Assembly (NCBI GenBank): GCA_007125415.1
Contig: SLDH01000251.1
Location: forward strand, 1 to 19,775
Direction: 5' to 3'
DNA length: 19,775 bases
Source of the DNA: Roseovarius sp.
Lineage (GTDB): Bacteria > Pseudomonadota > Alphaproteobacteria > Rhodobacterales > Rhodobacteraceae
Shown here: in pieces, positions 1,878 to 19,437 of the stretch
Numbering within the stretch: position 1 is the stretch's first letter
How the letters are laid out: each line of letters opens with the position of its first letter
Translations under genes and position numbers: made by a program
The notes under the pieces: model-generated
The model's database searches: none
The model's input: only the letters and a program-made list of their open reading frames with translations
Told to the model about the DNA's origin: nothing

Positions 1878-2120
1878 CCGGGGCGCTCCACCACGCTCGA
1901 TCAATCGTTGCAAGAGACAATCCGACATTGTGGTGAAGAGACGGTTAAGCGGTGCCTGCGTGCCCTGAATGCGCTTTCCTTGAAAAGACCCTATCGCGCC
2001 GGTTTCAGCAGGCAGCCCGGGCAAGGAACACCCTACGCCCAGCTCCATGCACCGACCGGCCTGGCCCATGACAGAGGCCTTGCCACACCTCGCGCCGCAT
2101 GGCACGATATTTCTCAAACG

Positions 2121-2126
2121 AGGAGG
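2121..2126 (+). promoter_or_regulatory. Shine-Dalgarno AGGAGG deciding the alpha-2-macroglobulin start
   Basis: A perfect AGGAGG lies 8 nt before ATG 2135-2137. The next in-frame ATG upstream (2099) has no such site and would put 12 charged or polar residues in front of the signal peptide, so 2135 is preferred. The 257-nt divergent region between this gene and the kinase gene (1878-2134) shows no clear promoter to my reading. Confidence 0.7.
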
Positions 2127-2134
2127 CCGCCATC

Positions 2135-5100
2135 ATGCTCCGTCATTTTCCCACAGTGATCCTAATGTCGTTCTTTGCCACGCAGGCCCTGGCCGAGAGC
2201 CCGGTGCCGGACCGCCGGCAGGTGATCACCTCGGATATCGACTTCTACGGCTCGGACCTGCAGCCGCTCTTCGACACCACCCGCGAGGCCTGCGAGGCGG
2301 CCTGTCTGGGCAACCCCGCCTGCATGGCCTATACGTTCAACACACGCTCCAGTGCCTGTTTCCCCAAATCCGCGGTAACCGAACGCAGGCCCTTTGATGG
2401 CGCAATCTCGGCCGAAATACTGGCCACGGAGCCTTCGGTGCTGGCCAATGCGGATGCGCGGCGAACCGAGCTCGACTTTCTGGGTGACAGCGATATCGCC
2501 CGGGCGACCGGCCTTGCCCGCGACATCTCGCGGCGTCATCCCGGCGGTCAATATACCGCCGAGGCGCTGCTTGAGGCTGCCACCGCACGCACCCGCGCGC
2601 AGGACTGGCTGAACGCGATGCGCTGGACCGGTGCGCTGGCCGCTCTGACCGATGCGTCCGGGGATTGGGCCGAATATGCACGTCTTTCCGCCGCGATCCG
2701 CAGCGAAAATGGCGCGGAACAGCGCCGCCTCAACGCGCAGGCCCTTGACGCTTCGGTCAACGCATATCTGCGCGCCGCGACCGCGCCGGAGCGCGTGAAT
2801 GCCCTGCTGGTCATGGCCCCCGCGCTGGAGGACGCGCGCCGCGGCCGGGACATGCTTCATGCCCTCAGGCTGGCCGAAAGCATCCAGCCCCGGGCCGATG
2901 TCATGGCAGCGCTGGAACAGGCCATCCCGAAATATGGCTTCCGCCTCATCGGCCACCGCGCGGAGAACGAAGCGGAAGCCCCACGGATCTGTGCGGAGTT
3001 CTCCGAGCCGCTGATCAAGGCCGGGCAGGACTATGCGCCCTTTGTGCGCGTCCCCGATGGCGGCTTGGCGGTGGAGGCGCGCGACAGTCAGATCTGCGTG
3101 GACGGCGTCCGCCACGGCGCGCGCTACACCATCACCTTTCGCGCCGGTTTGCCCGCAGCCAGTGGCGAGACACTGATCCGAGATACAGAGATCACGCTCT
3201 ATGTGCGCGACCGCGCCCCGAAGGTGAGCTTTGCGGGGCGCGCCTATGTGCTGCCCAAGGCGGCGGATGCGGCGCTGCCCATCGAAACGGTCAATCTCGA
3301 CACGGTCGAGCTGGTGTTGCGCCGGGTGAGTGATCGCAACCTGATGCGCACCCTGCAAACGGGCTATTTCGGACGGCCTCTGAGCCAGTACCAGCTTGAC
3401 GATTTCTCCAACGAGATCGCCGAGGAGGTCTGGCGCGGCACGGGCGATGTCGCCAACGAGCTGAACCAGACCATGACCACAAGACTGCCGCTGGGCGATG
3501 TTCTGACGGATCAGGAACCGGGGCTCTATGCGCTCACCGCCCGGATAGAGGGGCTCAGCCTCTATGAAGATCCGGGGGCCACGCAGTGGTTCGTGCTGAG
3601 CGATCTGGGCCTGACCACGCTCAAGGGCACGGATGGTCTGCATGTCTTCGTTCGCGGCCTCGGCGATGCAGCCGCGCTGGAAGGCGTGAAGCTGACCTTG
3701 CTGAGCCGCGCCAACCGGGAGCTGGCAATCGCCGAAACCGATGCCGAGGGGCATGCTCTTTTCGCGCCGGGCCTTGTCCGCGGCACCGGAGCATCCGCAC
3801 CGGCGCTGGTGTTGGCGGAGGCGGGTGATGAGGATATGACCTTCCTGTCGCTCACGGACCCTGCCTTCGATCTGTCGGATCGCGGTGTCGAGGGGCGGGA
3901 GGCGGCGCCACCCGTCGATGTCTTTCTGAGCACCGACCGGGGTGCCTATCGCGCAGGCGAGGTGATCCACGCGGCAGCCCTCGCGCGGGACAGCCTGGCA
4001 GAGGCGATCCCCGGCCTGCCGCTGACCGCGATCCTGATGCGCCCCGACGGTGTGGAATATTCCCGTCACCTCTCCACAAAAGACGCGGCCGGCGGCCATG
4101 TCTTTGCCCTGCCCATCGGTAATTCCGCCCCGCGCGGCAGTTGGCGGCTTGCCATCAAGGCCGATCTTGACGCGCCGCCGCTGGCCAGCAGGCAGGTGCT
4201 TGTCGAAGATTTTCTGCCCGAGCGGATCGATTTCCGGATGTCGCTGCCGGATGGCCCGATCCGCCCCGGTGACACGGCCCCCATCAGCGTGGAAGCGCGC
4301 TATCTCTTCGGTGCGCCCGGGGCCGGGCTGCAGGTCAGCGGCACGGCAAAGCTGGAACCTCTGCGCCGGCTCGAGGGCTTTCCCGGCTATGTCTTCGGCC
4401 GCCATGACGAATATGTCCCGAGCCCCACGGCCTATGCCGATGGCGGGCGGACCGATGCCGATGGTCAGCTTCTTCTGCCCATAACCCTGCCCGAGGCCGA
4501 ACAGCAGGACCGCCCCTATGAGGCGCAGATCACCCTTTCGGTGCGCGAAGGCTCCGGCCGCCCGGTTGAACGCCAGATCACCCGCGCACTGGCCCCCTCG
4601 GGTGACATGATCGGGATCAGACCCGATTTCGACGGGACGCTGCCCGAAGGCGCGCAGGCCCGTTTCGATGTGATCGGCATCAACACCGAGCTTGCGCCCA
4701 CGCCCATGAATATCCGCTGGAGCGTCAACCGTGTCGAGACGCGCTACCAATGGTATCAGCAATATGGCAACTGGTATTGGGAACCCGTCACCTCGCGCAG
4801 CCGTGTCGCCACCGGCACCGCCGAACTGACCGGCGAACCGCTGAGCATCGCCGCCCCCGTGGACTGGGGCAATTACGAGTTGGAAGTGGAGCGGATCGAC
4901 GGCGCTTACGTAGCTGCTTCCACCGGCTTTCAGGCCGGGTGGTACGCACCCGCCGATGCCTCGCGCACACCCGACAAGCTTGAGTTGTCGCTCGATCGGG
5001 AGGATTACCGAAGCGGCGAGACGGCGCATCTGCGCATCGTGCCGCGTCATGCGGGCACAGCGCTCATCACCGTCATGTCCAACCGGGTAATCGACATGCA

Positions 5101-7561
5101 GGCCGTCGAGGTGACGGAAGGCGAGAACCTGATCCCGCTTGCGGTCACAGAGGCCTGGGGGGCAGGGGCTTACGTGAGCGCACAGGTCATCCGCCCGATG
5201 GATGTGGCGGCAGGCCAGAGCCCGGCGCGCGCCCTGGGTCTTGCCTATGCAAGGATCGATCCGGGCACGAGGCAACTCAGTGTCGAGATCGATGCACCGG
5301 ACCTGACCGCGCCGCGCAAGCCACTCGATACGGTGGTCAGCGTGGACGGTCTGGCCGAGGGTGAAACGGGCTATGTCACCCTCGCCGCCGTTGATCTCGG
5401 CATTCTCAACCTCACCGGCTTCGAAAGCCCCGATCCATCGGCGCATTATTTCGGCCAGCGCCGCCTCGGCGTGGAGATCCGCGATCTGTACGGGCGGCTC
5501 ATCGATGGCATGACCGGCGCGCAGGGCCAGGTCCGCTCGGGCGGCGATCTCGGGTCAAGCCGCGACCGGCTGTCACCGCCCCCGACCGAGGAACTGGTGG
5601 CCTTCTTCACCGGTCCGGTCGAACTGGCCTCCGACGGCACGGCGCAGGCGCGCTTCGATCTGCCTGATTTCAACGGCACCGTGCGCCTGATGGCCATGGC
5701 ATGGTCACCCCGCGCCGTGGGTCAGGCCGCCCGCGACGTGGTGGTGCGCGATCCGGTCGTGGTGACGGCAACACTGCCGCGCTTTCTCGCCCCCGGTGAC
5801 ACGAGCGAATTGCTGCTTGAAATCGTCCATGCCGAAGGGCCGGCGGGGCGGATCGGCCTTGATGTGAGCGCAACGGGCCTCACCCTGAGCGAACCGGCGC
5901 CCAGCGGCTTCGATCTGGCAGAAGGCGAGACGCATGTCATCAGGCTGCCTGTCACCGCGGGTGACACCGGCGATCACGCCTTGCGCGTCGCCCTCACCAC
6001 ACCCGACGGTCAGCAACTGACGAAAGCCCTCACGCTGGGCGTGCGCGCCAATGATCCGCCCACCTCGCGGACAAGGCGGCTCACCCTCGCACCGGGCGAG
6101 GCACTCAGCCTCGATGACAACATCTTCGCCGGGCTTCGGGACGGCACCGCGTTCATCTCGGCCGGGCCGCTCTCGAAGCTGGATGCGCCCGGCCTGCTCA
6201 GCGCGCTCGACCGCTATCCCTATGGCTGCACCGAGCAGGTAACCTCGCAGGCACTGCCGCTGCTCTATCATGAGCAGGTGGCAGAGGCGCTGGGGCTGGG
6301 GAGCGCGGCGCGGGTGTCGCAGCGCATCGACGAAGCCATCGCGCAGGTGCTGACCCGGCAGGCGAGCAATGGCAGCTTCGGCCTCTGGCAGGCGGGATCG
6401 GGCGATTTCTGGCTTGATGCCTATGTGTCGGACTTTCTGTCCCGCGCCCGCGACAAGGGCCATGCGGTGCCGGATCAGGCCTTCGCCATGGCCATGGACA
6501 ACCTGCGCAACCGGGTGAATTACGCCCCCGATTTCGACGAGGGCGGCGAGGATATCGCCTATGCGCTCCTCGTACTGGCCCGGGAAGGGGCTGCGCGCAT
6601 GGGCGATCTGCGCTATTACGCCGATGTGAAGGCCGAAGCCTTCGCCACACCGCTGGCCGCCGCGCAACTGGGTGCCGCATTGGCCGCCTATGGCGATCAG
6701 ACCCGAGCCGACCGGATGTTCACGCAGGCGATGCGGGTGATCGACGCAGCGCCCACCGCCGATGAACCCCCGCTCTGGCGGGTGGATTACGGCACGCGCT
6801 ACCGCGACCGGGCGGGCGTTCTGGCCCTCGCAGCCGAGGCGGGCAGCGCCGTGGTGAACACCACGTCGCTGGCCGATACGCTCACCTTGCCGGGGCCGCA
6901 TATGTCACCGCAGGAACAATCGGCGGCTCTGATGGCGGTGGCCGCCCTGATGGCGGACGAGGGCGCGCGCACCCTCACGCTCGACGGCGCGGCGGTCTCG
7001 GGACCATTCGTGCATCGCTTCGACCAGCGGGGGCTGCGCAGCCATGAGATCGCCAACACATCCGGCGCGCCGCTGGATGTCACGCTGACCACCCAGGGGA
7101 TTCCGCAAGTGCCCGAGGCGGCCGGCGGCTATGGCTACAGCCTTTCGCGCAGCTATTACGACATGGAGGGCACACCCGTGGACATCGCCACCGTCAGCAC
7201 GGGCACGCGCCTTGTCACCGTGCTGCGCATCACCCCTTTCGAGGGCGGCGAGGCGCGCCTGATGATCGATGATCCGTTGCCGGCGGGGCTGGAGATCGAC
7301 AATCCGAACCTGTTGCGCAGTGGCGATATCCGCGCGCTGGACTGGCTGAACACGGCGGAGGCCGAATATAGCGAGGCACGGTCCGATCGCTTCCTTGCGG
7401 CGGTGGACTGGCGCTCGGATCAGAGCTTTGATCTGGCCTATATCGTGCGCGCCGTGGCGCCGGGGCGCTATCACCACCCCGCCGCAATTGTGGAGGATAT
7501 GTATCGCCCCGCCTACCGCGCCTGGACCGATACCGGCCAGATGCAGGTGACACCGCAATAG
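2135..7561 (+). CDS. Periplasmic alpha-2-macroglobulin family protein with N-terminal PAN/Apple domain
   Basis: Bacterial alpha-2-macroglobulins are thought to trap foreign proteases in the periplasm through a reactive thioester, protecting the cell during envelope damage. The 1808-residue product starts with a Sec signal peptide (MLRHFPTVILMSFFATQALA, then Glu-Ser). There is no lipobox Cys, so it should be soluble in the periplasm, unlike the lipoprotein YfhM of E. coli. A Cys-rich PAN/Apple-like domain follows (about residues 30-95), then a helical repeat-like region, many beta-sandwich macroglobulin domains, the A2M signature region near residue 1150 (SPPPTEELVAFFTGPV) and the thioester domain. 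The thioester motif is YPYGCTEQ with Cys1365 (codon 6227-6229) and the essential Gln, so cross-linking ability looks intact. The stop codon is 10 nt before pbpC, the classical partner in many proteobacteria, implying one operon and a joint role in cell-wall repair and defence. Confidence 0.95.
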   Translation: MLRHFPTVILMSFFATQALAESPVPDRRQVITSDIDFYGSDLQPLFDTTREACEAACLGNPACMAYTFNTRSSACFPKSAVTERRPFDGAISAEILATEPSVLANADARRTELDFLGDSDIARATGLARDISRRHPGGQYTAEALLEAATARTRAQDWLNAMRWTGALAALTDASGDWAEYARLSAAIRSENGAEQRRLNAQALDASVNAYLRAATAPERVNALLVMAPALEDARRGRDMLHALRLAESIQPRADVMAALEQAIPKYGFRLIGHRAENEAEAPRICAEFSEPLIKAGQDYAPFVRVPDGGLAVEARDSQICVDGVRHGARYTITFRAGLPAASGETLIRDTEITLYVRDRAPKVSFAGRAYVLPKAADAALPIETVNLDTVELVLRRVSDRNLMRTLQTGYFGRPLSQYQLDDFSNEIAEEVWRGTGDVANELNQTMTTRLPLGDVLTDQEPGLYALTARIEGLSLYEDPGATQWFVLSDLGLTTLKGTDGLHVFVRGLGDAAALEGVKLTLLSRANRELAIAETDAEGHALFAPGLVRGTGASAPALVLAEAGDEDMTFLSLTDPAFDLSDRGVEGREAAPPVDVFLSTDRGAYRAGEVIHAAALARDSLAEAIPGLPLTAILMRPDGVEYSRHLSTKDAAGGHVFALPIGNSAPRGSWRLAIKADLDAPPLASRQVLVEDFLPERIDFRMSLPDGPIRPGDTAPISVEARYLFGAPGAGLQVSGTAKLEPLRRLEGFPGYVFGRHDEYVPSPTAYADGGRTDADGQLLLPITLPEAEQQDRPYEAQITLSVREGSGRPVERQITRALAPSGDMIGIRPDFDGTLPEGAQARFDVIGINTELAPTPMNIRWSVNRVETRYQWYQQYGNWYWEPVTSRSRVATGTAELTGEPLSIAAPVDWGNYELEVERIDGAYVAASTGFQAGWYAPADASRTPDKLELSLDREDYRSGETAHLRIVPRHAGTALITVMSNRVIDMQAVEVTEGENLIPLAVTEAWGAGAYVSAQVIRPMDVAAGQSPARALGLAYARIDPGTRQLSVEIDAPDLTAPRKPLDTVVSVDGLAEGETGYVTLAAVDLGILNLTGFESPDPSAHYFGQRRLGVEIRDLYGRLIDGMTGAQGQVRSGGDLGSSRDRLSPPPTEELVAFFTGPVELASDGTAQARFDLPDFNGTVRLMAMAWSPRAVGQAARDVVVRDPVVVTATLPRFLAPGDTSELLLEIVHAEGPAGRIGLDVSATGLTLSEPAPSGFDLAEGETHVIRLPVTAGDTGDHALRVALTTPDGQQLTKALTLGVRANDPPTSRTRRLTLAPGEALSLDDNIFAGLRDGTAFISAGPLSKLDAPGLLSALDRYPYGCTEQVTSQALPLLYHEQVAEALGLGSAARVSQRIDEAIAQVLTRQASNGSFGLWQAGSGDFWLDAYVSDFLSRARDKGHAVPDQAFAMAMDNLRNRVNYAPDFDEGGEDIAYALLVLAREGAARMGDLRYYADVKAEAFATPLAAAQLGAALAAYGDQTRADRMFTQAMRVIDAAPTADEPPLWRVDYGTRYRDRAGVLALAAEAGSAVVNTTSLADTLTLPGPHMSPQEQSAALMAVAALMADEGARTLTLDGAAVSGPFVHRFDQRGLRSHEIANTSGAPLDVTLTTQGIPQVPEAAGGYGYSLSRSYYDMEGTPVDIATVSTGTRLVTVLRITPFEGGEARLMIDDPLPAGLEIDNPNLLRSGDIRALDWLNTAEAEYSEARSDRFLAAVDWRSDQSFDLAYIVRAVAPGRYHHPAAIVEDMYRPAYRAWTDTGQMQVTPQ

Positions 7562-7571
7562 GCCCCCGGCG

Positions 7572-9614
7572 ATGCGCGCGCATCACTGGCTGCTCTGCCT
7601 GGTCGGCCTGCTCTTCCTGACGGGCCTTGCGCGCGACCGTTTCGATGCCTGGGTCGACGCCACGAACCTTCCGCCGCTACTCTCGGAGCAATCCATCGAG
7701 ATGCGCGACCGGGAGGGGGCGCTGCTCAGGGTCTACACCGTGGCCGATGGGCGCTGGCGGATGGGCGTGCGCCCCGATCAGGTGGATGCGGGCTTTCTCG
7801 ACATGCTCATCGCCTATGAGGACCGGCGCTTTCACCGCCATGCCGGGGTGGACCCGCTGGCGCTCTTGCGGGCAGGAGTTCAGATGGTCCGATACGGGCA
7901 GGTGGTATCGGGTGCCTCGACCCTCACGATGCAGGTGGCCCGCCTGCTGGAGGAAAGCGGCACAGGACAGATCGACGGCAAACTGCGCCAGATGCGCGTG
8001 GCGCTGGCGCTGGAGCGGCATCTGAGCAAGGAACAGATCCTCGAACTTTACCTGACCCATGCGCCCTATGGCGGCAATCTCGAAGGGGTTCGCGCGGCAG
8101 CGCTGGCATGGTTCGGAAAGGAGCCCACACGCCTGACCCCGGCGGAGGCAGCCCTTCTCGTGGCCTTGCCGCAATCGCCCGAGACACGCCGCCCCGACCG
8201 ACATCATGCAAGAGCGACGGATGCGCGCGAACGCGTCCTGCAGCGCATGCGGCACGCAGGCGTGCTGAGCGATGAGGAAGCGCGCGCCGCCCTCTCCGAG
8301 CCGGTGCCAGCCGCGCGCCGCCCCTTCCCGGCACTGGCGCCGCATCTTGGGGATCTTCTGCGCGCAGAGAGGCCCAGGCAACTCCGCCATGACCTGACGC
8401 TGGACGCGGGTTTGCAGGCGCGGCTCGAGGCGCTGGCGACGACCTCCCTCAGCCGCCTGCCCGAAGAGCTTTCCATCGCCATCGTCGTGGCCGATCACGG
8501 GACCGGTGAGGTGCTGGGCAGCGTCGGCTCAGGCAGCTATGGCACGGCCCGCGCCACGCAGGGATTTGTGGACATGACGCGGGCCAAGCGCTCCCCGGGC
8601 TCCACCCTCAAGCCTCTGGTCTATGCCATCGGGTTTGACCGCGGGCTTGCGCACCCGCAAACGGTGATCAATGATCGGCCTGTCGCCTTCGAGGGCTATG
8701 CACCACAGAATTTCGACGGTGCTTTCCGGGGTGAATTGCCCGTAGCCGAGGCGCTGCGCCTGTCGCTCAACATCCCCGTGGTGCTGCTCCTGAACGAGAT
8801 CGGCCCGGCCCATCTGATGAGCGTGATGCGCCGCGCCGGAGCCGAGCCGCAACTGCCCGGCGATCAGGCGGGGCTGGCTGTGGCGCTGGGCGGTGTCGGC
8901 GTGTCGCTCAACGAACTGGTGCAGCTTTACGCCATGCTGGCCCAGGGCGGGCAGGCGCGCGCCCTGCACTGGCAGGCCGGAGAGGGCACGTCTCCCGGTT
9001 CAGAGGTGCTGGGGCGCGCAGCCGCCTGGCATGTGGGCGATATTCTTGCCTCGCTCGCCCCGCCGCAGGGTGCGCCCGAGTGGCGGCTGGCCTACAAGAC
9101 CGGCACCTCCTACGGGTATCGCGATGCCTGGGCTGTGGGGTATGACGGACGGCATGTCGCCGGCGTCTGGGTCGGGCGGCCCGATGGCACGCCGGTCCCG
9201 GGAGCTTTCGGCGGCGATTTTGCCGCGCCGATCCTCTTCGAGGCGTTCCAGCGCCTCAAGCCGCAGGCTGATCCGCTGGGGCCGCCCCCGCCCGAAACAT
9301 TGATCCTGACCATCGCCGAGTTGCCGCGACCGCTCCAGCGTTTCATCGGGCGCAATGCGCTCTTCGAGGCCCCTTCGGACGCACCGAAGCTGATCTTCCC
9401 GCCTGACGGCGCGGTCCTGCAAGCGGCGGACAGCCTTCCGGTGAAACTGCGTGATGGCAAACCGCCTTTCACATGGCTGGCCAATGGTGTGCCTGTGCGG
9501 CTGGGCGAATACCGGCGCGAGACAACCCTTCCAGCACCCGGCGCGGGGTTTTCCGATCTTGCCGTGATCGACGCGCAGGGGCGCACCGCGCGCGTCACCG
9601 TGCAGATTCGATAG
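7572..9614 (+). CDS. pbpC: Penicillin-binding protein 1C (bifunctional class A PBP)
   Basis: Bifunctional peptidoglycan synthase anchored in the inner membrane: the glycosyltransferase 51 domain polymerises lipid II and the transpeptidase domain cross-links peptides. The 680-residue product has one N-terminal membrane segment (about residues 5-18). The GT51 domain has the catalytic Glu83 in YEDRRFHRHAGVD and the motif GASTLTMQ. The penicillin-binding motifs are Ser344-Thr-Leu-Lys347, Ser398-Leu-Asn400 and Lys509-Thr-Gly. The C-terminal 90 residues (from about SLPVKLRDGKPPFTWLANG) fit the BiPBP_C domain that marks PBP1C. All catalytic residues are present and the length is normal for alphaproteobacteria. 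The ATG lies 10 nt after the alpha-2-macroglobulin stop with only a weak ribosome site, so translation is probably coupled to it. Confidence 0.95.
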   Translation: MRAHHWLLCLVGLLFLTGLARDRFDAWVDATNLPPLLSEQSIEMRDREGALLRVYTVADGRWRMGVRPDQVDAGFLDMLIAYEDRRFHRHAGVDPLALLRAGVQMVRYGQVVSGASTLTMQVARLLEESGTGQIDGKLRQMRVALALERHLSKEQILELYLTHAPYGGNLEGVRAAALAWFGKEPTRLTPAEAALLVALPQSPETRRPDRHHARATDARERVLQRMRHAGVLSDEEARAALSEPVPAARRPFPALAPHLGDLLRAERPRQLRHDLTLDAGLQARLEALATTSLSRLPEELSIAIVVADHGTGEVLGSVGSGSYGTARATQGFVDMTRAKRSPGSTLKPLVYAIGFDRGLAHPQTVINDRPVAFEGYAPQNFDGAFRGELPVAEALRLSLNIPVVLLLNEIGPAHLMSVMRRAGAEPQLPGDQAGLAVALGGVGVSLNELVQLYAMLAQGGQARALHWQAGEGTSPGSEVLGRAAAWHVGDILASLAPPQGAPEWRLAYKTGTSYGYRDAWAVGYDGRHVAGVWVGRPDGTPVPGAFGGDFAAPILFEAFQRLKPQADPLGPPPPETLILTIAELPRPLQRFIGRNALFEAPSDAPKLIFPPDGAVLQAADSLPVKLRDGKPPFTWLANGVPVRLGEYRRETTLPAPGAGFSDLAVIDAQGRTARVTVQIR

Positions 9615-17233: not shown

Positions 17234-18451
17234 ATGACACGCTCGCTGAGCCTTGCCGCCTATATGGCATATGCCCGCCGCACCACGCAGCCATCGGGCG
17301 ACTTCGAGATCGGGCGGCCCGAGGGAGAGCTTGTCTGGGCACATGCCGCCGATCTCGAGCGGGCGAAGGCCCTCGTGCAGATTGCCGAACGGCTGGCGCA
17401 ACTGCGACCGGGGCTGCATATGCTTCTGACGGTTGCAGAGGGCGCAAAGACCCCCGAGCCTGCCGACGAAAGCACACTCGTCCAGCCATTGCCGGAAGAC
17501 AGGGTCGCGGCGGTGACGGCCTTTCTCGACCACTGGTCCCCCGATCTCTGCCTCTGGGCGGGGGCCGAGCTGCGGCCCGCCTTGCTGACCGGCGCCGACA
17601 AGCGCGGCATCCCGCTCTATCTGATCGACGCGACCGAAGAGCAATTCGCCCGCCCGCGATGGCGCTGGCTTCCCGATCTGTCACGATCCCTTCTGCAGCG
17701 CTTTGCCCAGGTCCAGGCACGCTCGAGGAGCGCTGCGCAAAGCCTCTGCCGCCTCGGGCTGTCCGAAGAGAACATCACCATATCGGGCCCCCTGCGCACC
17801 GAAGCGCTGCCCCGGCCCTATGATGAAGCCGCGCGCGACAAGCTTGCCCGGATCCTTCTCGGACGACCCGTCTGGCTGGCGGCATATCTGGACCCGGGTG
17901 AGTTGGACATCGTCCTCGAGGCGCGCCGGAAGGTCAGCCGCTTTGCGCATCGGCTGATGCTGGTGATCTGCCCTGAGCACCCGGACGCGAAGGACGAGAT
18001 CGCCGCCCGGTTGACAGAGGAGGGGTTGCGCTTTGCCGACTGGTCTGCCGGTGACGAGCCGTCGGAGCACTGCCAGGTGATCCTCGGCGAGCCGGAGCGG
18101 GAGCTTGGCCTGTGGTACCGGCTGGCCCCGATCTGCCTGATGGGCCAATCGCTCTTGCCGGGCATGACGGGGCGCGATCCCGATGAGCCCGCCGTCCATG
18201 GCTCAGCCATCCTCTACGGACCCAATGTGCGGACCTATCTCAAGGAATATGGCCGCTATGCCGAGATGCGCGCCGCGCGGATCGTGCGCGACCCGGAGAC
18301 CATGGCGGCCGCGGTCAGCCAGCTCATCGCGCCGGATCACGCAGCGGCCATGGCCCATGCCGCCTGGGATGTCGCCTCGCAGGCGGCCGAGGTGAATGAC
18401 CGGTTGCTCGATCTCATTCAGGACACACTCGATCTTGTGACGGCGCGCTGA
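17234..18451 (+). CDS. Divergent Kdo transferase-like protein (KdtA/WaaA N-terminal glycosyltransferase family)
   Basis: The 405-residue protein has the overall layout of 3-deoxy-D-manno-octulosonic acid transferase: an N-terminal half with LVWAHA (34-38), LRPGLHMLLTV and LDHWSPDLCLW, and a C-terminal GT-B half with RPVWLAA, LMLVICPEHPD and HGSAILYGPNV. Classical WaaA landmarks are changed at their aligned sites: His-Ser-Val-Ser-Val-Gly-Glu reads HAADLER (37-43), Glu-Thr-Glu-Leu-Trp-Pro reads GAELRP (110-115), Ser-Thr-His-x-Gly-Glu reads YLDPGE, and Gly-Gly-His-Asn-Pro-Leu-Glu reads TGRDPDE (312-318). The N-terminal membrane anchor of E. coli WaaA is not evident. Its stop overlaps the lpxK-like start (TGATG). 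It may be a clade-specific transferase with altered donor or acceptor use. Family membership is fairly sure; Kdo transferase activity is not. Confidence 0.75.
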   Translation: MTRSLSLAAYMAYARRTTQPSGDFEIGRPEGELVWAHAADLERAKALVQIAERLAQLRPGLHMLLTVAEGAKTPEPADESTLVQPLPEDRVAAVTAFLDHWSPDLCLWAGAELRPALLTGADKRGIPLYLIDATEEQFARPRWRWLPDLSRSLLQRFAQVQARSRSAAQSLCRLGLSEENITISGPLRTEALPRPYDEAARDKLARILLGRPVWLAAYLDPGELDIVLEARRKVSRFAHRLMLVICPEHPDAKDEIAARLTEEGLRFADWSAGDEPSEHCQVILGEPERELGLWYRLAPICLMGQSLLPGMTGRDPDEPAVHGSAILYGPNVRTYLKEYGRYAEMRAARIVRDPETMAAAVSQLIAPDHAAAMAHAAWDVASQAAEVNDRLLDLIQDTLDLVTAR

Positions 18452-19437
18452 TGCGGGCCCCGGCCTTCTGGTACAGACCCCCCGACCGACCGGGGATCGC
18501 CGCACGCCTGCTGACCCCGCTGGGCTGGATCACGGCGAAGCTCCGGTCTCGCCAACCATCCGAACCGGAGCCTCTGACGCTGCCCGTTCCGGTGATCTGC
18601 CTCAGGACGCTCACGCCTCGGCACAGCGGCATGGTGCCTGCTGTGATCGCACTCGTTCAACATCTTGAAAGGCTTGGGCACAGAGCCGTCGTGGCATGCA
18701 AGGCCGGGCGCATGGGGCCGGAGGAGGCCGTGGAAGTGGACCCGGCGCGGCACCGGGCGGAAGAGGTGGGCGATGATGCCATGCTTATCGCCGCCTTCAC
18801 GAAGGTCTGGGTGGCCCGCGACGCAACCAGTGCGGCCCGCTCTGCCGCGCGCGCGGGGGCCGTGGTGATCACCCTGGAAGATGGGCGCGGGCCGCGCGTG
18901 CTGTCGCCCGATATCCGCATCGTCGTGGCGGATGCGATCGAGGGGTTCGGCAATGGGCTTTGCCGGCCTGCCGGGCCATTGCGGGAGCCTGTGGCATCCG
19001 CCCTGAGTGCGGCCGATCTGCTCTTGTCCATCGGCCCCCCCAAGGCACAGAAGCTTTTCGAGGCGCATTGGGCCGGTGCCATCACGGGGCCGCATCTGCG
19101 CGGCCAGCTGGAGCCGCTTCAGACCGGCATGGACTGGCAGGGGGCGTCGCTTCTGGCCTTTACCGGGATCGGGACACCGGAAGGATTCTTTGCGAGCCTG
19201 CGCGGATTGGGCGCGACGCTCTTGCGTGCGGAGACGATGGAGGCGCATCAGCCTCTGACCCGGGCCCTGATGGCGCGGCTCGACGGAGAGGCGAGCGCGC
19301 TCGGCGCGCAACTGGTCACAACCGAAAGGGACGCCATGCGTCTGCCCCTGGAGTTTCGCCAGAAGGTCCTGACGCTGCCATTGCGACTTCGGATCGAGAA
19401 CGGTGCGCTTCTGGACCATGTGCTGGCGGAACTCTGA
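18451..19437 (+). CDS. LpxK-like protein (tetraacyldisaccharide 4'-kinase family) with lost P-loop and catalytic motif
   Basis: LpxK phosphorylates the 4' position of the lipid A disaccharide at the inner membrane using ATP. This 328-residue protein aligns along its whole length: start MRAPAFWYRPPDRP, FGNG with PAGPLREPV (166-181), LEPLQTGMDWQG, AFTGIGTPEGFFASLRGLGA and GAQLVTTERDAMRLP. The active-site motifs are replaced: the P-loop, GNLTAGGNGKTP in E. coli, is RTLTPRHSGMVP (52-63) with Met61 at the Lys site; Ser-Arg-Gly-Tyr-Gly-Gly is CKAGRMG; Asp-Asp-Gly-Phe/Leu-Gln is EDGRG (143-147); Asp-His-Gln is AHQ (265-267). Asp108 and His266 remain. The changes are codon-for-codon, not frameshifts. 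Either a pseudokinase with a new role or a second, non-ATP-binding paralogue. It is translationally coupled to the kdtA-like gene by a one-base overlap. Confidence 0.75.
   Translation: MRAPAFWYRPPDRPGIAARLLTPLGWITAKLRSRQPSEPEPLTLPVPVICLRTLTPRHSGMVPAVIALVQHLERLGHRAVVACKAGRMGPEEAVEVDPARHRAEEVGDDAMLIAAFTKVWVARDATSAARSAARAGAVVITLEDGRGPRVLSPDIRIVVADAIEGFGNGLCRPAGPLREPVASALSAADLLLSIGPPKAQKLFEAHWAGAITGPHLRGQLEPLQTGMDWQGASLLAFTGIGTPEGFFASLRGLGATLLRAETMEAHQPLTRALMARLDGEASALGAQLVTTERDAMRLPLEFRQKVLTLPLRLRIENGALLDHVLAEL

Follow-up and report, generated by a model that had tools for sequence, protein, structure and literature searches.

A catalytically degenerate LpxK homologue retained in Roseovarius genomes in which the early lipid A enzymes are unmatched

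Why would a bacterium keep an open gene for the lipid A 4'-kinase LpxK after residues of its catalytic site have been replaced? The question is raised by an ORF in the 19,775-nucleotide stretch of Roseovarius sp. DNA that we analysed (contig SLDH01000251.1, hereafter the window). This ORF (18451-19437, forward strand) starts with ATG, remains open and codes for an LpxK-like protein of 328 amino acids, a pseudokinase candidate. Its homology to LpxK over the whole length, as originally proposed, is confirmed by the Pfam family LpxK (PF02606), which matches residues 18-325 with 179.2 bits (cut-off 27). The score against NCBIfam TIGR00682 (100.6 bits) also exceeds the cut-off of 91.95, so that automatic annotation would label the protein as an active LpxK. 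The Walker A segment RTLTPRHSGMVP (residues 52-63; 18604-18639, forward strand) is degenerate, however, both in the sequence and in the alignments; at the place of GxxGxGKT it reads PRHSGMV, with Lys replaced by Met and Thr by Val. Along the same strand the alignments put GDD in place of GDE at 18769-18777 (Aquifex D99 kept, E100 replaced by Asp), EDGRG in place of the Walker B motif DDGFQ at 18877-18891 (D138 replaced by Glu, D139 kept, Gln replaced by Gly) and AHQ in place of DHQ at 19243-19251 (D260 replaced by Ala, H261 kept). The catalytic set made up of the Walker B Asp-Asp with D99, E100 and H261 is thus broken at D138 and E100. Directly upstream (17234-18451, forward strand) lies a gene for a KdtA-like paralogue of predicted GT-B fold, devoid of the WaaA active-site motifs, which overlaps the start codon of the lpxK-like gene by ATGA. 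Elsewhere in the window (2099-9614) a gene for a bacterial alpha-2-macroglobulin precedes one of the PBP1C type, which is an ordinary pairing.

The changes were measured on a reference alignment of 54 normal LpxK rows picked from the retrieved loci (that of genome G107 included) and numbered as in Aquifex; an earlier alignment of 115 rows omitted L041, L042, L117 and L121 as well as rows of odd length. Thirteen functional positions, each invariant in all 54 rows, were followed. The window protein has lost nine of them (K51M, T52V, R72K, E100D, R119A, D138E, Q142G, D260A and K280R) and retains D99, D139, R171 and H261, whereas among the other conserved columns 20 of 81 have changed (Fisher p 0.0026), so the claim that the loss is focused on catalytic positions holds. 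The broader statement of the original prediction, that the catalytic motifs had been replaced within an intact frame, is right for these nine positions and too sweeping for the His of DHQ and the second Asp of DDG, both of which persist. A small length change had been placed at residues 83-90; the alignment instead has a gap of 7 columns around residue 136, within a loop that differs in length among normal relatives as well.

The genome to which the window belongs (G000) is a metagenome assembly of 3.09 Mb in 410 contigs, 87% complete, and it contains a single LpxK match: the search for a second lpxK elsewhere in it, suggested with the original prediction, yielded no other. The missing 13% might of course hold a normal LpxK together with the lpx genes, but the situation in the rest of this marine genus makes such an artefact scarcely credible. 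LpxK was matched in 81 of 84 Roseovarius genomes, without internal stops in any of them, and the scores are bimodal: 70 genomes lie between 309 and 347 bits, the other 11 between 61 and 261. Reading of the loci identified these 11 altered genomes as G000, G005, G018, G023, G035, G065, G071, G079, G081, G084 and G093. Their LpxKs have lost from 6 to all 13 of the functional positions, always preferentially (p 0.016 to 3e-7), and that of G084 is heavily eroded, scoring 61 bits and having changes in 38 of the 81 other conserved columns. One altered type corresponds to a named species, the LpxK of G071 being 97% identical to P0001, a Roseovarius mucosus protein that carries the annotation tetraacyldisaccharide 4'-kinase. 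Fragmentation of G000 and the low completeness of G079 (65%) are what an assembly gap has in its favour; nine of the eleven are 94-100% complete, and the same pattern is found in eight other genomes that are 96-100% complete, G071 among them, by which a gap as the cause is largely refuted.

The altered LpxKs coincide with the disappearance of the pathway that should feed them. LpxC was matched in 70 of the 84 genomes, including 69 of the 70 with a normal-scoring LpxK and none of the 11 altered ones; the 14 genomes without it are these 11, G107, and the less complete G080 and G097 (73% and 81%), in which LpxK is unmatched too. LpxB was found in 0/11 altered genomes vs 9/9 sampled normal ones, and LpxA in 0/11 vs 13/13, being unmatched in G107 as well. 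In G000 (87% complete) and the 10 further altered genomes there is, then, no match to any of the three enzymes, LpxA, LpxC and LpxB, that would supply an active LpxK with substrate. All 16 sampled normal genomes have two KdtA matches, a strong one (174-188 bits) and a weak one (66-103 bits) adjoining lpxK; only the weak one is present in G107 and in 10 of the 11 altered genomes, and G005 shows no match, since the contig ends within its copy. Judging from these gene contents and residues, the window protein is very probably a catalytically dead LpxK in a bacterium without the lipid A pathway. The original prediction had also offered the binding of a lipid A precursor as a possible role, which is contradicted, because with LpxA, LpxB and LpxC unmatched no such precursor should exist for the altered LpxK to bind.

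Could the cells still be making lipid A with Lpx enzymes that are very divergent or go unrecognised, LpxK being active through an unusual site? Part of the export machinery is there, since LptD was matched in all 21 sampled genomes, including the 11 altered ones, and the two genes upstream of lptD, those of the LptF/LptG permeases (identified in G071), occur in 19 of 20 LptD regions, the exception being G000, where the contig is cut; lptF/lptG are thus found in the 10 altered genomes with the region complete enough. The window protein also keeps D99, D139 and H261. However, LpxA, LpxB, LpxC and the canonical KdtA are unmatched even in genomes that are 99-100% complete in 3-6 contigs (G071, G035), and K51 and T52 (Aquifex numbering) are both changed in the window protein, where a single Ala change of either one lowers kcat 3000-fold according to the review PMC6286764. 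We consider it very improbable that these cells continue to make lipid A, which is presumably absent from them.

How many times did this happen? We built a species tree from seven proteins around lptD (pepA, lptF, lptG, lptD, surA, pdxA and rsmA; 3051 columns, 20 genomes, G107 left out). The altered genomes occupy four separate positions in it, each with a lipid A-positive sister and with support of 100/100: G000 with G003; G005 with G022; G065/G079/G081/G084 with G078; and G035/G018/G071/G023/G093 with G103. A single ancestral loss, with the 11 forming one clade, is rejected on this seven-gene tree (AU p 7e-56; p 4e-34 without G000). A quick tree of the KdtA-like proteins also needs four changes, and a quick LpxK tree only two, since it joins, weakly (SH-aLRT 82), the ten altered genes other than that of G000. 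We attribute this grouping to their shared fast evolution, although transfer of an altered lpxK could give the same picture. Fewer losses followed by regains of the pathway would produce the same pattern in the species tree, but separate losses are far more likely.

In the lineage of the window the early steps of lipid A synthesis and the canonical Kdo transferase would have been lost, leaving the 4'-kinase activity of LpxK superfluous, and its ATP and catalytic site would have eroded once that activity was no longer needed. Genome G107 appears to capture this order of events. It is 98% complete and without matches to LpxA, LpxC or the canonical KdtA, and its LpxK has lost none of the 13 functional residues; compared with the lipid A-positive G078 the identity is 88% for LpxK and 94% for the KdtA-like protein. 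Its gene content makes it a probable fifth, recent lipid A loss, and it looks as if the pathway went first and the kinase site later.

Is the altered LpxK, then, a relict, functionless after the loss of lipid A and slowly decaying, whose frame has stayed open through chance or through the rarity of new stops in GC-rich sequence? The intact LpxK of G107 after loss of its pathway would fit such a delay, as would the degraded gene of G084, the absence of LpxK from the probably lipid A-less relative G199 (see below) and the raised dN/dS and long branches of the altered genes. The selection estimates are not uniform. In the G018/G023/G071/G093 clade, the best measured, dN/dS of LpxK is 0.14-0.27 (YN00) or 0.21-0.27 (NG86), and that of the KdtA-like gene 0.025-0.05 (YN00) or 0.04-0.075 (NG86). 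In the G065/G079/G081/G084 clade LpxK gives 0.28-0.58 with NG86, and 0.09-0.24 with YN00 in the 4 of 6 pairs that could be computed. Close pairs of normal genomes have 0.056-0.17 (NG86) or 0.035-0.22 (YN00) for LpxK and 0.055-0.21 (NG86) for the KdtA-like gene, but the distant normal pair G015-G078 reaches 0.31 (NG86) for LpxK, so that normal and altered ranges overlap. The comparison of the window lineage with G003, a distant one that includes a normal branch, gives NG86 values of 0.32 for LpxK and 0.28 for the KdtA-like gene, and the KdtA-like protein of this lineage also sits on a long branch. From these ratios, the constraint on LpxK is weakened yet present, more clearly in one altered clade than in the other.

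The open frames point in the same direction. None of the 11 altered genes has a stop, and neutral simulations, with frameshifts uncounted, left few stop-free copies: 4/200 at d 0.76, 13/200 at d 0.36 and 35/200 at d 0.18, with 3, 6 and 17 of 200 in three further runs. We also considered, and rejected, an antisense gene holding the frame open; the window gene and that of G084 do have an antisense frame open along their full length, but such a frame is lacking in the remaining nine of the 11 altered genes. A relict is thus unlikely in view of the low stop-free counts (3 to 35 of 200), of the dN/dS of 0.14-0.27 (YN00) in the best clade, of the loss being centred on catalytic columns and of LpxA, LpxB, LpxC and the canonical KdtA being unmatched in the same genomes. 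Decay had been named as the outcome that would overturn the original prediction, and it is countered by the 11 open frames and by that clade, though less so by the NG86 values of up to 0.58 in the other. A maintained pseudokinase is accordingly the best-supported reading of the sequences at the level of the group, the window lineage itself having no close altered relative against which selection could be measured; on balance the altered LpxK is likely to be kept by selection rather than decaying.

The distribution of the changes along the protein also bears on this choice. The fraction of conserved columns still intact is 0.36-0.60 around the P-loop, 0.74-0.93 in residues 166-236 and 0.76-0.90 in residues 291-338, with intermediate values in the other regions. 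This unevenness is the pattern predicted if catalysis is lost and the scaffold kept, while the erosion of a relict should be more even, with the caveat that buried structural positions can lag in erosion too. Modelling of the fold, a check proposed at the outset, gave the two-domain LpxK fold for the window protein, so that in prediction it is retained. A phmmer search of the PDB with the single sequence found no match up to E 1, and an alignment-profile search led to LpxK 4ehw/4ehx. The next structural match to the predicted fold after LpxK is cyclic 2,3-diphosphoglycerate synthetase, and this related P-loop fold with another activity, together with the conserved fold and C-terminal half, could suggest a new enzyme with a different ligand in a remodelled pocket. 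Yet K51-T52 has been replaced variously between and even within lineages (MV, AL, TM, PL, NL, VL; G005 keeps the K), without a shared new motif at this site across the altered LpxKs, and we regard a new activity as improbable.

If not catalysis, what is the protein retained for? The altered lpxK has a constant neighbour, the KdtA-like gene, which adjoins lpxK in 12/12 Roseovarius loci with spans read and in 5/5 loci of other genera (one cut by the contig end). The flanks of the pair vary between loci, as far as automatic ORF picking, in which some gene labels are wrong, allows them to be described. In G071 (the R. mucosus type; L127:6523-7685) BLH_phosphatase and DGOK-like genes lie directly upstream and overlap into kdtA-like, a possible four-gene operon. 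The KdtA-like protein is itself a paralogue devoid of these catalytic signatures: that of the window has DLER and PEH at the columns where six canonical KdtAs (L146-L151) keep SVGE and PRH, and the WaaA active-site motifs are absent throughout the aligned KdtA-like proteins of the genus. The catalytic residues of WaaA are Gly30-Glu31 and Arg212 according to PMC6286764; their placement in SVGE and PRH is our own assignment.

The KdtA-like paralogue occurs in genomes with the lipid A pathway as well as in those without it, and the LpxK-like protein, translationally coupled to it, probably works with it. We propose that LpxK in this family also serves a structural purpose, being a scaffold at the membrane periphery or a partner of the KdtA-like protein; this role would be independent of ATP hydrolysis and outlast lipid A, and is possibly tied to the export of another lipid through the retained Lpt machinery. 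Among the functions originally put forward, that of a subunit of the KdtA-like partner is the favoured one, and possible. Taken as a whole, a lineage without lipid A that retains LpxK as a structural scaffold or partner of the KdtA-like protein is the best explanation, and a fairly likely one, within which the partnership in a lipid A-independent role is more tentative. Equally tentatively, LpxK and the KdtA paralogue may be a pair with a lipid A-independent job in Roseovarius and its relatives, LpxK having been bifunctional all along: after each loss (four by the tree, probably five with G107) the kinase site would erode sooner or later and the pair stay, perhaps for export of a replacement lipid over the Lpt bridge.

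With the LpxK of A. aeolicus (PDB 4EHY/4LKV) the window protein has in common the full-length homology, the predicted fold and the position downstream of a kdtA-type gene, as well as the LpxK scaffold motifs FGNG, PAGPLREP and GMDWQG; it differs in the replaced Walker A Lys-Thr, first Walker B Asp, R72, R119 and K280, and in a genome where the early lipid A enzymes are unmatched. Its upstream partner shares with WaaA/KdtA (PDB 2XCI, 4BFC) the predicted GT-B fold and part of the C-terminal motifs, but has no N-terminal anchor segment and no SVGE, ESELWP, NLK or PRH motifs, and the canonical KdtA is a separate protein, found in those lipid A-positive relatives that were sampled and missing from the altered genomes. 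Pseudokinases in general keep their fold, lose catalytic residues and remain under weakened but persisting selection, and the altered LpxK resembles them in all three respects. Our literature search, with most subscription journals outside its scope, found neither a described LpxK pseudokinase nor a report that Roseovarius has lost lipid A. Gram-negative bacteria that live without lipid A are known, namely lipid A-deficient Acinetobacter baumannii, conditionally lipid A-less Caulobacter and naturally lipid A-less Sphingomonas (PMC10964400). The Roseovarius case is similar in this, but differs from them in being a natural absence of genes that arose several separate times in one genus and left a remnant of LpxK. 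It is still an open question why most Gram-negatives cannot live without lipid A while a few can (PMC10964400), and for this question several natural losses in one genus, a probable recent one (G107), lipid A-positive sisters and an altered type matching the named species R. mucosus offer a replicated comparison. The repeated retention of a broken LpxK in the genus suggests a second, hidden role for the protein, and one for the KdtA paralogue too. It is also a warning that the annotation "tetraacyldisaccharide 4'-kinase", as for P0001, can occur in genomes without the lipid A synthesis genes.

How far does the association extend beyond the genus? We surveyed 395 genomes of the family, drawing one or two per genus and scoring at most five LpxK candidates per genome, so that absences weigh less here. 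Among the matches listed, LpxC is missing in six (G000, G199, G230, G307, G417 and G490). G199, a single contig from another genus rated 100% complete, has neither LpxC nor LpxK among these matches and is, by gene content, probably a lipid A-less genome without an LpxK remnant; the protein is therefore not retained in every lipid A-less relative. The reverse combination, LpxC matched and LpxK unmatched among the matches listed (with up to five candidates scored), was seen in G156, G170, G178, G195, G200, G211, G214, G236, G389 and G393. Low LpxK scores in G213, G303, G443, G471 and G474 are due to matches that are short or split, and these genomes do not enter the altered count. G307 and G417 have low-scoring LpxKs with 2 and 5 of the 13 functional residues changed, without focus on functional columns (p 0.86 and 0.087) and with the Walker A Lys-Thr kept. 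LpxC is unmatched in G230 and G490 among the matches listed, with normal-scoring LpxKs (308 and 324 bits), as it is in G107 with its intact one. Conversely, G245 (L199, L203) has LpxC, and its only LpxK match has 12 of the 13 functional residues changed, with kdtA-like still upstream, so that alteration of LpxK is not strictly tied to loss of LpxC; in Roseovarius, lipid A loss and a changed LpxK go closely together, though not without exception.
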